Shown in pieces: positions 24,415 through 29,219 of a DNA stretch of 38,206 nucleotides (the first letter of the stretch is position 1; each line of letters begins with the position of its first letter). The notes under the pieces were generated by a model. The model ran no database searches and was not told the origin of the DNA. It saw nothing but the letters and a program-made list of their open reading frames with translations. Made by a program: the position numbers and the translations under genes. The stretch spans positions 1 to 38,206 of the forward strand of contig JAGPCO010000076.1 of assembly GCA_018058095.1 (NCBI GenBank), given 5' to 3'. This DNA is from Kofleriaceae bacterium (GTDB taxonomy: Bacteria; Myxococcota_A; Polyangia; Haliangiales; Haliangiaceae).

Positions 24415-25260
24415 TCAGCAGCCGGACAACGTGACGAAGACCAGGGTCTGCGGGACCACCGCCAGGCCGTTGACCGCGCCGCAGGTCGTGGCGCCCCGGG
24501 CGCCGCCCAGGACGAAGGGGGCGGCGCTGGCCGGCGCGACCAGCGCGGTGCCGGTGACGCCGGAGGCCGCGAGAGGGCTGGCCAGGCTCAGGCCCTGGTA
24601 CGGCGTCGGCGCGTCGAAGTACCAGGCGTACGGCGGGGTGAGGTTGGACGCCGGCGGGGTCCCATCGATGAGGGCGGTCACCCCGCTGGCGGCGGCGCCG
24701 GCGCTGGTGAAGGCCACCAGGTAGCCGGTGTCGCGGGCCAGGTTCTGGCCGGGCAGCCAGGTCGCCGTCGAGGCGGTGGTCACCAGCTCGAGCGGCTCGG
24801 TCATCGCCGAGGTGCTGGCTGGCATCAGGTGGAGGACCCGCCGGTAGGTGCTGCCGGTGTCGGATACCTCGAGGCCAACCCGAGCGCCGGCGACGTCCGC
24901 GACCTGATAGCGCCCACAGTCGTCGATGCTGCCCACGACGGGCGTGGGCGACATGGCGGCGAACAGGGCGTCGGCGTCGACGCCGCGCACGGCCAGCGCA
25001 CACGGCCCCTCGGTCCCGGTGCAGGCCAGGCCGGTCGGCCGCGCTACTCGCAGCGGCGCCCCGGTTCCGGCGTCGACCAGCTGGCCACACACCGAGGTCC
25101 CTGCCCCGCTGCTCGGGCACGCCGGCGCCGCCGCACACACGGCGTTGGGGTCGGCGTCGACGCCGCCCTGGCTGGTGGCGTCGAGCCCCAGCAGCTGGGC
25201 GCACCCGGGTCCGAGCGCGAGCCCCACCAGGACGAGCAGGCGCGCGCCCACGCCGGTCAT
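24415..25260 (-). CDS. Exported lipoprotein with carboxypeptidase-regulatory-like region
   Basis: 281 aa from the ATG at 25258-25260. The signal peptide MTGVGARLLVLVGLALGPGC has a lipobox-like LGPGC (Cys20). It is followed by AQLLGLDA, a start I associate with myxobacterial lipoproteins. A segment starting VCGQLVDAGTGAPLRVARP and continuing to DDCGRYQVADVAGARVGL looks like a carboxypeptidase-regulatory beta-sandwich. The rest is beta-rich and ends in LVFVTLSGC. Its ATG overlaps the stop of the HMA gene (ATGA), so translation is probably coupled to that gene. An in-frame upstream ATG at 25492-25494 would add 78 Arg-rich residues and bury the signal peptide, so I reject it. Confidence 0.82.
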   Translation of the reverse strand: MTGVGARLLVLVGLALGPGCAQLLGLDATSQGGVDADPNAVCAAAPACPSSGAGTSVCGQLVDAGTGAPLRVARPTGLACTGTEGPCALAVRGVDADALFAAMSPTPVVGSIDDCGRYQVADVAGARVGLEVSDTGSTYRRVLHLMPASTSAMTEPLELVTTASTATWLPGQNLARDTGYLVAFTSAGAAASGVTALIDGTPPASNLTPPYAWYFDAPTPYQGLSLASPLAASGVTGTALVAPASAAPFVLGGARGATTCGAVNGLAVVPQTLVFVTLSGC

Positions 25261-25661
25261 GGCGGCAGCACCTGGGTGGTGGCCCGGTCGGGCCAGCCCG
25301 GCCGCGCCAGCCATGGGTCGTAGCCGACCGCGCGCAACGCGGCCAGCATCGGCGCGGTGGCCGCCTTGGGCGGGCCGAGCGCGGCGTCGTACGAGACCCA
25401 GATGGACTCGGTGTCGACGTCGACGCCGACCTCGTACACCCCCGGCACCTTGGCGAGCGCGGACCGCACTCGTTTGGGGCACTCCTCCGGTCATGTCACG
25501 CCGAGCGCCTTGAGGGTGACCTGGACCAGCTCGGCCGGGCGTGGCCGCACCGCCGGCGCGGCGGCCACGTCGGCGCGGTCACAACCGCTCGACCAGGCGG
25601 CCCCGGCCAGGACCAGCGGCAGCGCGGCCGCCAGCGCCAGCGGGCGCCACGCCGCCCTCAC
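25257..25661 (-). CDS. Candidate selenoprotein: HMA-domain lipoprotein with in-frame UGA (Sec57)
   Basis: One frame of 135 codons from GTG 25659-25661 to TGA 25257-25259 with one internal TGA at codon 57 (25491-25493). Residues 1-27 look like a lipoprotein signal (hydrophobic LALAAALPLVLAGAAWSSGC, Cys27). After a linker comes a full HMA fold: strand LVQVTLKALGVT, then U57-PEE-C61, helix PKRVRSALAKVPGV, strands YEVGVDVDTE and SIWVSYDA, helix PMLAALRAVG, and YDPWLA. HMA proteins have Cys where UGA stands (GMTC-type loop). The start overlaps the upstream stop (GTGA) and the stop overlaps the next ATG (ATGA), so the whole frame behaves as one gene. A SECIS-like hairpin follows the UGA. I infer an exported selenocysteine metal-binding or thiol-redox protein. 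Alternatives are a nonsense mutation of a Cys codon or a read error. Ordinary annotation would call only 25257-25469 from a GTG, losing the signal, strand 1 and both ligands. Confidence 0.7.
25455..25471 (-). promoter_or_regulatory. Bacterial SECIS-like hairpin
   Basis: On the transcribed strand GAGUGC-GGUCC-GCGCUC forms a 6-bp stem (one G-U pair) with a 5-nt apical loop starting GG. The loop begins 25 nt after the in-frame UGA at 25491-25493. Known bacterial SECIS elements have a short stem, a G in the first two loop positions and a UGA-to-loop distance of roughly 16-37 nt; the fdhF loop is GGUCU. I see no clear equivalent of the bulged U of fdhF. Confidence 0.55.
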
Positions 25662-28501
25662 CGCCGTCGTCCCCGTCGCGGCGCCGGCTCGGGCGCGGCG
25701 CCGTCCGCCTTGGGCAGCCCCAGCGCGGCCGGCAGCTGCTCGTCGATCAGCGCGGCGACGCGGGACAGCTCGGCCAGGCTGGGTGAGGAGGTCGCGCTGG
25801 CGCTGGCCTGCAGGCGCTTGATGATCTCGGTCGCGGCCGTGCGATCGGCGTCCTTGGCGCCCTTCACGCTGACCATCGCCTCGGCGTAGGCCAGCTCGAC
25901 CAGCGGCACCATCGGCGCCTTGTCGCGCTCGAGCAGGCCGAACAGCTCGAGCGCCCCGGCCGCGTCGCCCTTGGCCATGGCCAGCTTGCCCTGCAGCCCG
26001 CGCGCTGGCAGGAAGCCTGGGTTGGCGGCCACCGCCTTGTCGAGCTCGGCCGCCGCGGGCTCGAGTTCACCGGCGGTGATCATCAGCTGGGCCAGGGTCG
26101 TGTGGGTCCGGTACTCGACCGGGTTGGGCGCGTCGTCGCTGATGCCGTCGATGGCCTGGGCCAGCTTCTTGCGGGCCTCGGCCGGGTCGCCGCCGGTGGC
26201 CACCAGGGCGGCGCCGAGCGCGTGCTGGCCCAGCTTGGACTTGGTCCGGCGCGCCACCTTCTCGAGAGCCGCGAACGCGCTGTCGCGGTCCTTGCCCGAG
26301 CTCGCGGCCAGCACCGCCGCCCACTCGCGCATGACCTGGGCCTCGAGGTTCTCGGGCGCGCGGGTGATGAGCTCGTCGGCCTCGGCCAGCGCGCCCTGCG
26401 CCTTGCCGGCGTCGATGAGGCCCTGCACGCGGATGAGGCGGGCCCGCACGCCCTCGACCTTGCTGGCGATGTCGACCGCCTTGTCGGGCACGCCGCCGGC
26501 GAGGTTGAGGCCGGCCTCGACCAGCAGCACGAGCGGATCGGGCTCGGCGTCCTTGAACGACTTGATGGTGGCGCGGGCCTTGGCCGAGGCCTCGAGGCGC
26601 CCGCGCAGGTACTGGGCCATGGCCAGGCGGGCCATGAAGCGCGACTCGGGCAGGTCGCCGCGCTCGGCCGGGGCGCTGGCCGCGGCCATCGACTTGAGGA
26701 ACTCGGCGTAGTCCTCGGTGGTGTTCTGCGCCAGCGCCAGCGCCAGGTTGCGGTAGGCCGCCACCCGCGGGCCGAGCGGCTTGTCGAGCTTGGCCGACAG
26801 GTCGTCGACGGCGGCGGTGGTGTCGACGCCACTCTCGGCCCGCCCCAGGGCCCGGCCGAGCAGGGCCAGCGGGTGGTCCTTCTCCGCGGCCAGGACCTCG
26901 TCGTACAGCTTGATCGCCTCGCCCAGCTGGCCCTCGTCCACCAGCAGATCGGCGCGGTCGATGACGGCCACCAGCAGGCCGCTACCGCCGTCGGTGGCGG
27001 CAGCGCCGGCCTGCTTGAGCGAGGCGTGCGCCGCCTTGCGCTCGCCGGCGGCGAGCTGGGCCCGGGCCTTGAGCCAGCGCGCCCACTGGTCGCCGTCATC
27101 GGCGGTGAGCAGGGCGTCGAGCGCGGTCACCACCTCGGCCAGCGCGGTGGTCGGCGCCTCGCGCGTCGGCAGCCGGGCCAGCTCGATGGCGCTCCTGCCG
27201 ATCGCGATCTCGTGGTAGCCCTTCTGCGTCGGCTTCTTGATGTCGCGCGCGGCCTGCTTGCAGGCGGTGTCGACGGTGTCCGGATCGGTGCCGTACAGCA
27301 GCGCGCGCAGGCCGGCGGTCTCGCACACGTAGGCGTAGGTCAGCGCGCTCCGCTTGTCGGTCTGGATCGCGACCTTGAGGTCCTGCAGCGCGCCGTCGAG
27401 GCCGACCCACGACGCGGTGACGATCTTCTCCTTGGCCGACTTCTGCAGGCGGGCCACCTTCTCGGCCTTGACCTTGTTCGAGTACCACCAGTACCCGCCG
27501 CCGCCGCCGACGCCGAGGAACAGCAGCACGAAGAGAAAGATGAACATCCGGGTGGTCGACCGACCCCAGCGCCGATCCGGCTTGAGGTCGTAGTCGAGCT
27601 CGGGCACACGCACGCCGCCGATGTCGAGCAGGCCGCCGGTGAGCAGATCGTTGAGGTAGTTCTCGCCGACCGCGGCCGACCGGCGCAGCGACGGCGCGGC
27701 GGCGTTCTTCTCGCGGGTGTTGGACACCACCCGCGGCCGCACCACCTCCCCCGAGGGAGCAAGCGGCGGCGCCAGGCTGGCCGGCTTGCTGCGAGCGGGC
27801 GCCGGCGCCGGCGCGGGGGCACGGGCCGGCGGGCGGGCCGGCGCCGCGGCCGGGCTGCTGGCCAGCATCGCCGGGCCCGGCCCGGCGTGGTCGTCGAACG
27901 GGTTGACCGCGGTCGGGTCGGCGTCGATCGGCGCCGGCTGGGCGGCGGCGCGCATCGACTGCCGGGGTGGTGCGGGCGCCGCGGTGCGGGTCGGGGCCGG
28001 GGCCGCGGCCGGCGGCCGGGCCCGGGCATCCTGGCGCGGGCTGATGGGCGACGGGATCGGCGGCGGCGGGTCGAGCTGCTGCCCGGCGCGAGCCCGCCGC
28101 AACAGGGTCAACACCGTGCTGCTGGTCGGGTCGAGGTTCTGCGCGTGCTGCAGGACCGGGAGGGCCCGCTCGTAGTCGGACCGGCGCAGCAGCACCTCGC
28201 CCAGCAGGGCGAAGCCGCCGCGCGAGTTGCGGTCGACCTTGACCACCCGCAGCAGCTCGCCCTGCGCCTCTTTCCACTGGTGCAGCGCGCAGTGGGCGCG
28301 GGCCAGCATGACCCGGCCCTCCGAGCTGTTCGGGTCGGCCGACAGGCCGGTGGCGCCGACCCGGAGCGCGTCCTGGGGACGGCCCAGGGCCAGGTACGCG
28401 TCACCGAGGTCGATGAAGGCCGGGGAGGCCGGATCACGCCGGACCAGATCCTCGAGCTCCTCGATCTCCTGCGCAGACGGGCGGCGATCGGATTCGACCA
28501 T
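25658..28501 (-). CDS. Large TPR protein with a single central membrane segment
   Basis: 947 aa from the ATG at 28499-28501, which has AAAGG about 8 nt upstream. The cytoplasmic N-terminus has TPR repeats at about 10-145 (AFIDLGDAYLALGRPQDALR, GRVMLARAHCALHQWKEAQG). A Pro/Ala-rich linker runs to about 265, and one membrane helix is at about 319-341 (FIFLFVLLFLGVGGGGGYWW). A long extracytoplasmic set of helical repeats fills about 345-925, and the tail is basic (PAPRRGRRR). Such proteins usually scaffold envelope complexes, but I do not recognise this one. An in-frame extension to 28897 is Arg/Ala-rich shadow. Its stop overlaps the GTG start of the HMA gene by 4 nt, and it leads this three-gene operon. 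Confidence 0.9.
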   Translation of the reverse strand: MVESDRRPSAQEIEELEDLVRRDPASPAFIDLGDAYLALGRPQDALRVGATGLSADPNSSEGRVMLARAHCALHQWKEAQGELLRVVKVDRNSRGGFALLGEVLLRRSDYERALPVLQHAQNLDPTSSTVLTLLRRARAGQQLDPPPPIPSPISPRQDARARPPAAAPAPTRTAAPAPPRQSMRAAAQPAPIDADPTAVNPFDDHAGPGPAMLASSPAAAPARPPARAPAPAPAPARSKPASLAPPLAPSGEVVRPRVVSNTREKNAAAPSLRRSAAVGENYLNDLLTGGLLDIGGVRVPELDYDLKPDRRWGRSTTRMFIFLFVLLFLGVGGGGGYWWYSNKVKAEKVARLQKSAKEKIVTASWVGLDGALQDLKVAIQTDKRSALTYAYVCETAGLRALLYGTDPDTVDTACKQAARDIKKPTQKGYHEIAIGRSAIELARLPTREAPTTALAEVVTALDALLTADDGDQWARWLKARAQLAAGERKAAHASLKQAGAAATDGGSGLLVAVIDRADLLVDEGQLGEAIKLYDEVLAAEKDHPLALLGRALGRAESGVDTTAAVDDLSAKLDKPLGPRVAAYRNLALALAQNTTEDYAEFLKSMAAASAPAERGDLPESRFMARLAMAQYLRGRLEASAKARATIKSFKDAEPDPLVLLVEAGLNLAGGVPDKAVDIASKVEGVRARLIRVQGLIDAGKAQGALAEADELITRAPENLEAQVMREWAAVLAASSGKDRDSAFAALEKVARRTKSKLGQHALGAALVATGGDPAEARKKLAQAIDGISDDAPNPVEYRTHTTLAQLMITAGELEPAAAELDKAVAANPGFLPARGLQGKLAMAKGDAAGALELFGLLERDKAPMVPLVELAYAEAMVSVKGAKDADRTAATEIIKRLQASASATSSPSLAELSRVAALIDEQLPAALGLPKADGAAPEPAPRRGRRR

Positions 28502-28517
28502 GCGGAAGCCTTTCGAG

Positions 28518-28546
28518 ACTAAACCGAAATCGGGTGGCGCAGCAAA
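28518..28546 (-). promoter_or_regulatory. Candidate promoter of the TPR-HMA-lipoprotein operon
   Basis: On the minus strand TTTGCT (28541-28546) and TTTAGT (28518-28523) are 17 bp apart, 16 nt before the TPR start codon. Both boxes match the consensus only partly, but this is the sole AT-rich patch in the 82-nt gap. Confidence 0.4.
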
Positions 28547-28583
28547 CCCGCGGGCCGCGAATACACCACGAGCCCGCCCGCCC

Positions 28584-29219
28584 TCACGGCGCGCACGCGG
28601 CGCGGGCGGAAAAGCGCTGCCCGGGGCACGATCCCGAGGCGCGGAAGGTCTGCCCGTCGCAGCCGCAATAGCTGCGCAGATCACGCGTGCAGCCGCGTGC
28701 ACGCGCCGCGCACGTGCCGGGCTGATCGGACCCGCAGCCCTGCCCTTCACAAACGCCGCTGTCACACTCGCTGGCGGCCAGACATGGCGCACCGACCGGC
28801 CGCGCGGTGGCGGCGGTGCTGGTGCACGCGCCCCGGCTGGCGAAGCGGGCGCCCGGGCACGAGCCCGACGCCGAGAAGGTCGCGCCGTCGCAGCCACAGT
28901 AGGCCTGGATGTCCATCGTGCAGGCGCGCATCCGGCTCACACAGCGGCCGGCGCCGTCGCCACAGCCCTGGCCCTCGCACACCCCGCTGGTGCAGTCGGC
29001 CGCGGCGGTGCAGGCCGCCCCGTCGGGCTGGCCCGGGCCCGGCGCCTCGCTCGCCGAGCCGGCGCCGACGGACGAGCCGGCGCCCGAGCCTGGCCCCGGC
29101 TCGGTCGGCGGGGGCAGGTAGGTGGAGCCGCCCGACATCGGCGGCGGCGGCGGCGCGGTCGACACCGGGCAGCCGACCAGCGCGAGCAGCAAGAGCACCG
29201 GCACGATCGAGCGCGACAT
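28584..29219 (-). CDS. Cys-rich lipoprotein with two tandem Kazal-like modules
   Basis: 211 aa. The signal peptide MSRSIVPVLLLLALVGC has a canonical lipobox (LVGC, Cys17). A Pro/Gly/Ser linker leads to two tandem ~67-residue modules, each with C-x(5)-C-x(3)-VCEGQGC, a run of further cysteines, YCGCDG-TF-ASGSCPG-RF and a final Cys. The CGCDGxTF core resembles Kazal-type domains, known as protease inhibitors. The modules are closely similar, so the duplication looks recent. All cysteines are paired in number between copies, consistent with disulfides on the cell surface. It is transcribed away from aroC, 48 bp from its start. Confidence 0.85.
   Translation of the reverse strand: MSRSIVPVLLLLALVGCPVSTAPPPPPMSGGSTYLPPPTEPGPGSGAGSSVGAGSASEAPGPGQPDGAACTAAADCTSGVCEGQGCGDGAGRCVSRMRACTMDIQAYCGCDGATFSASGSCPGARFASRGACTSTAATARPVGAPCLAASECDSGVCEGQGCGSDQPGTCAARARGCTRDLRSYCGCDGQTFRASGSCPGQRFSARAACAP

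Follow-up and report, generated by a model that had tools for sequence, protein, structure and literature searches.

A predicted bacterial SECIS hairpin retained with UGA and lost with Cys codons in an HMA lipoprotein gene of the Kofleriaceae

We analysed a 38,206-nucleotide stretch of DNA from a Kofleriaceae bacterium (contig JAGPCO010000076.1, hereafter the window) and found a minus-strand gene for a predicted heavy-metal-type (HMA) lipoprotein that is interrupted by an in-frame UGA. A hairpin at 25472-25454 is predicted to be the bacterial SECIS element (bSECIS) for the UGA at 25493-25491, a reading to which we give a probability of about 80% from the comparison of related sequences. The computation revealed a selenocysteine (Sec) machinery, an exchange between UGA and Cys codons among orthologues, a conserved reading frame and a retention of the hairpin that is linked to the UGA. 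The features are collected in Table 1.

Table 1. Features of the predicted selenoprotein locus, in window coordinates.
Feature	Position	Strand	Remarks
UxxxC selenoprotein gene (predicted), 134-aa HMA-domain lipoprotein	25257..25661	-	Frame open before and after the UGA
In-frame UGA, predicted Sec codon U57	25491..25493	-	UGA in 8 orthologues, Cys codon in 13
Predicted bSECIS hairpin	25454..25472	-	CGAGUGC 25472-25466, loop GGUCC 25465-25461, GCGCUCG 25460-25454
Arg66 codon CGG (25466-25464) and next base U (25463)	25463..25466	-	Closing C, loop GG, then U
Arg64 codon CGA	25470..25472	-	Rare (3.5% of Arg codons); its A pairs with the U of CUC
TPR-repeat gene, upstream	25658..28897	-	Overlaps selenoprotein gene start; TPR_19 E 1.3e-19; conserved neighbour

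The gene starts with a GTG at 25661 and runs for 56 codons to the UGA and for a further 77 codons to its stop at 25259-25257. ORF calling with translation table 11 splits it at the UGA into two short ORFs (25491-25661 and 25257-25469). The read-through product has a signal peptide and a lipobox-like Cys (C27) that lines up with the lipobox Cys in every orthologue, and it matches the HMA domain PF00403 (E 2.3e-7, 31.6 bits vs a gathering score of 24.8). Its AlphaFold model adopts the babbab HMA fold (mean pLDDT 85, and 97 across the domain), with the first helix formed by residues 60-69. The nearest solved structures are MerP and copper-chaperone domains, the best Foldseek match being MerP 1osd (E 1e-5). 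The metal-binding loop reads GVT-U-PEE-C; the classical GMxCxxC loop is absent from 21/21 orthologues, which have UxxxC or CxxxC, one residue longer. The lipoprotein also has a conserved C-terminal W...WP extension, and W117 and W123-P124, downstream of the UGA, are conserved. Judging from the fold and the lipobox, the product would be a membrane-anchored lipoprotein that faces the periplasm, and its Sec-x-x-x-Cys loop probably either binds Cu(I), Hg(II) or another soft metal or performs redox chemistry. Downstream of the gene, on the minus strand, lies an ORF of 281 aa (24415-25260) with a lipobox-like start (MTGVGARLLVLVGLALGPGCAQ), for which we found no Pfam match and no counterpart in the orthologous loci searched.

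When 56 related genomes were searched, orthologues were recovered from 20 others, 13 of them of the same genus as the window and seven of a sister genus. Immediately upstream of the orthologue lies the same TPR gene at 19 of the 20 loci, and in the remaining one (L021) the contig ends before the TPR gene. All seven sister-genus genes have UGA at the same codon, which together with the window's gene (L009) makes eight UGA genes in two Kofleriaceae genera; all 13 syntenic own-genus orthologues have Cys at this position (GMYCEESC). In a tree of the TPR proteins the window's gene branches first within its genus, and a single Sec/Cys change is enough; the short HMA tree largely agrees with this topology, with one long branch uncertain. 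For the closest pair of genes, L028 and L029, dN is 0.02 vs a dS of 0.29 downstream of the UGA, and for this pair selection on this part of the protein is clear. A profile of the family searched against 282 genomes of the phylum returned one distant extra match, an ordinary CxxC HMA protein, and thus no wider set of UGA genes.

An earlier note on this DNA had described the hairpin as GAGUGC-GGUCC-GCGCUC, with a 6-bp stem and a loop that starts with GG 25 nt after the UGA, and we confirmed each of these features. Read 5' to 3' on the minus strand from 25493, the sequence is UGA-CCGGAGGAGUGCCCCAAAC-GAGUGC-GGUCC-GCGCUC, with arms at 25471-25466 and 25460-25455; the 6-bp stem includes one U.G pair. 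An outer C-G pair (25472/25454) lengthens the stem and the first and last bases of the loop are able to pair, and RNAfold prefers an 8-bp form with a GUC loop (-11.2 kcal/mol). As set out in the excerpted text of a recent catalogue, bSECIS elements have a loop of 3-9 nt, a stem of 4-16 bp, a UGA-to-loop distance of 16-37 nt and an energy of <= -7.5, with a G within the first two loop positions and a loop of the form N1-G-[G/U]-N-N2 in which N1 and N2 are able to pair (PMC13188914). Set beside these excerpted rules, the general bacterial SECIS form claimed for the hairpin held: it has a distance of 25 nt, a 5-nt loop and a 7-bp stem (or 26, 3 and 8, respectively), the loop G is present, and the energy in the window's gene (-10.0 to -11.2 kcal/mol) lies below the -7.5 limit. 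GGUCC fits the loop consensus and nothing essential differs in the hairpin, SelB binding being a prediction. The hairpin does overlap the first HMA helix, as had been proposed, and covers residues 64-69 within the helix of the AlphaFold model. The hairpin dominates a short stretch of RNA just past a ribosome positioned at the UGA, where its mean pair probability is 1.0 (nt +13 to +50) or 0.53 (+13 to +60); in a 101-nt fold, longer-range pairs replace it.

SelB-dependent decoding through a bSECIS is a known mechanism. Here, SelB with GTP and Sec-tRNA(UCA) would bind the GG(U) apical loop just downstream of the ribosome and, with the UGA held in the A site, would deliver Sec there in place of termination. 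The ribosome would then melt the hairpin and translate it into residues 64-69 of the first HMA helix. SelB binding, the efficiency of readthrough and the identity of the metal are what we infer in this model.

To compare genes, the hairpin site was fixed by the window's gene and then tested on the other orthologues. A stem of 6 or more contiguous pairs with a loop that begins GG, at the fixed spacing, was found in 7/8 UGA genes (the window's own counted) and in 0/13 Cys genes; with the protein held fixed and synonymous codons allowed to vary, the chance of a retained hairpin is about 0.6% per UGA gene. Conservation of the stem among UGA-containing orthologues, which the earlier note had named as a check, was therefore observed. 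As to covariation, named with it, the changes seen were one-sided (U.G, U-A and C-G at one pair), and counting of the pairs in the 8 UGA sequences found none altered on both sides relative to the commonest form.

The codons within the hairpin follow the same division. The loop has GG in 8/8 UGA genes, and a loop G is the third base of the Arg66 codon, which is CGG in all 8 UGA genes and CGC or CGT in all 13 Cys genes (genome Arg codon usage: CGC 57-64%, CGG 0.21-0.31). The Arg64 codon is CGA or CGG in 8/8 UGA genes and never CGC. At the stem and loop Arg codons of the UGA genes CGC is used in 0/16 cases vs 37/67 at other Arg codons of the same genes (Fisher 2.8e-5), and the window's gene shares identical codons with the Cys genes of its own genus at 24/55 positions in the hairpin and 152/230 elsewhere (p 0.003); because related sequences were treated as independent and the tree needs one Sec/Cys change, these p-values are too small and it is the direction that counts. 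Codon identity between the window's gene and the UGA genes of the sister genus is 0.75 in the hairpin and 0.73 outside, i.e. no higher. The one UGA gene that falls short, L013, has 5 contiguous pairs, two of them G.U, and a site energy of +0.7 kcal/mol; in L013 and L027 the local pairing probability of the hairpin is close to 0 and the energy at the site does not reach -7.5 kcal/mol. Separately, wherever a UGA gene has Pro at +5 (25478-25476 in the window), between the UGA and the stem, its codon is CCC or CCA (7/7); in 13/13 Cys genes this codon is CCG.

In a GC-rich genome such hairpins are common, so the hairpin alone proves nothing. For an RNA of this composition the folding energy is unremarkable (z of -0.7 to +0.2 against dinucleotide shuffles). 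In genes of the same genome, a hairpin that passes the bSECIS rules (<= -7.5 kcal/mol) follows 20.6% of random codons and 25.9% of Cys codons, and an equally stable one follows 6.9% and 8.4%, respectively. When codons were redrawn from genome usage with the protein fixed, such an energy arose in 2.1% of cases at the site and in 8.4% anywhere allowed. A scan of the window with Rfam at gathering thresholds returned a tRNA-Trp only.

This abundance of hairpins bears on an alternative in which the UGA does encode Sec and the SECIS lies elsewhere, as a stem at +18 or a non-canonical element, the +25 hairpin being a by-product of the VRxAL codons in a GC-rich genome. Encoding VRxAL does fix part of the stem (GUGC/GCGC) and by itself yields an incomplete stem in Cys genes, some of which keep half of it. 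A competing hairpin, CCCGC-CGGGU-GCGGG (-7.5 kcal/mol, loop 18 nt past the UGA), is also present in 5/8 UGA genes, all from the sister genus (L013, L021, L027, L028 and L029), among them both genes that fail to fold the +25 stem. However, L009, L019 and L026, in which the +25 stem is strongest, lack the +18 stem, and the loop GG and the stem codons follow UGA vs Cys beyond what the protein constrains. We therefore regard a SECIS elsewhere as unlikely, although it survives better than the other alternatives considered. In the five sister-genus genes, the +18 hairpin could act as a competitor of the +25 hairpin or take its place.

The reading of the +25 hairpin as the SECIS can be set beside an independent case, selD, which in the window's genus alternates between UGA and Cys (L158 from the window's own genome, L152, L154, L169-L172 and L176-L183). 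All seven selD genes with UGA (L158, L169-L172, L181 and L183) have a 7-bp stem and a GGU or GGC loop 18 nt past the UGA. The hairpin was found in 0/7 selD genes with Cys, in which only 0-2 pairs form at the site. Reading of the sequences showed that the outermost pair is U-A in the UGA copy L181 and C-G in the others. Within this lineage, a GG-loop hairpin thus accompanies UGA and is lost from genes with Cys. The selD element resembles the predicted bSECIS of the lipoprotein gene in its perfect stem, its GGU/GGC apical loop and its loss from Cys homologues; it differs in the distance from UGA to loop (18 nt vs 25 nt) and in the sequence of the stem.

Decoding of UGA 25493-25491 as Sec is close to certain. 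The same assembly encodes a tRNA-Sec with a UCA anticodon, SelA, SelB (above its curated cut-off) and SelD, the last with an in-frame UGA of its own (motif GGGUAAK). The two short ORFs returned by ORF callers would suit a real stop or an inactivating mutation, that is, a split gene, a pseudogene or an assembly error. Yet the same UGA occurs in 8 separate assemblies from two genera with Cys aligned to it in 13 orthologues, the protein is conserved beyond it as far as the C-terminal Trp and Pro residues, and the full Sec machinery is present, which makes this explanation very improbable. Even less probable, with nothing found in its favour, is that a suppressor tRNA or a changed code inserts another amino acid, since other genes, as well as this one, end in UGA, a tRNA-Sec(UCA) is present and Cys is what aligns with the UGA, as it does for Sec. 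The shared UGA, the Cys alignment, the Sec machinery and the use of UGA as a stop elsewhere led us to reject a pseudogene, a sequencing error and a code change.

Among known families, NF041115 (UxxU_metal_bind) is similar in that it combines an HMA fold with Sec in the metal-binding loop. Its members have UxxU (e.g. GMTUGTUP in L116), and the loop of the window's protein, UxxxC, is one residue longer; tested against this model, the window's protein (P0001) scored 25.2 bits vs a curated cut-off of 95, and it has no UxxU. NF045683, a MerT/CopZ fusion-like selenoprotein, also links a CopZ/HMA domain with Sec, but it is a MerT fusion of 235 positions, and the window's protein, a lone HMA lipoprotein, scored 24.7 bits vs 375. 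The MerP and CopZ metallochaperones share the predicted babbab fold and have CxxC, in contrast to the Sec/Cys-xxx-Cys loop, the lipobox and the W...WP extension found here. Three HMA homologues from other genera (L031, L032 and L033 in G025, G016 and G030) have two in-frame UGAs in a GM[TD]-U-xxx-U loop (UxxxU) and score 54-75 bits, below the NF041115 cut-off. The +25 hairpin is not kept in these three, so the SECIS cannot be aligned beyond the two genera.

In its excerpted text, a 2026 catalogue of prokaryotic selenoproteins describes UxxU, C/SxxU and UxxC metal-binding proteins (PMC13188914). The terms 'UxxxC', 'HMA' and 'Myxococc' do not occur in that text (PMC13188914), an absence from one review that does not prove novelty, and a search of the literature on myxobacterial or HMA selenoproteins found nothing on a UxxxC HMA lipoprotein family. 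As far as these sources extend, the hairpin appears to be an ordinary bacterial SECIS in a seemingly unlisted UxxxC subfamily of HMA selenoproteins. With some reserve, we favour an unlisted Kofleriaceae family of Sec-x-x-x-Cys HMA lipoproteins in which one genus changed from Sec to Cys and lost the SECIS at synonymous codons.

If this is correct, an RNA constraint is seen switching off while the protein stays, and the set of metal-binding selenoproteins would gain a UxxxC HMA lipoprotein. Sister lineages that carry this syntenic gene in a Sec or a Cys form would offer a clean natural comparison of the codon choice that a SECIS imposes, and selD of the same genus would provide an independent second case.
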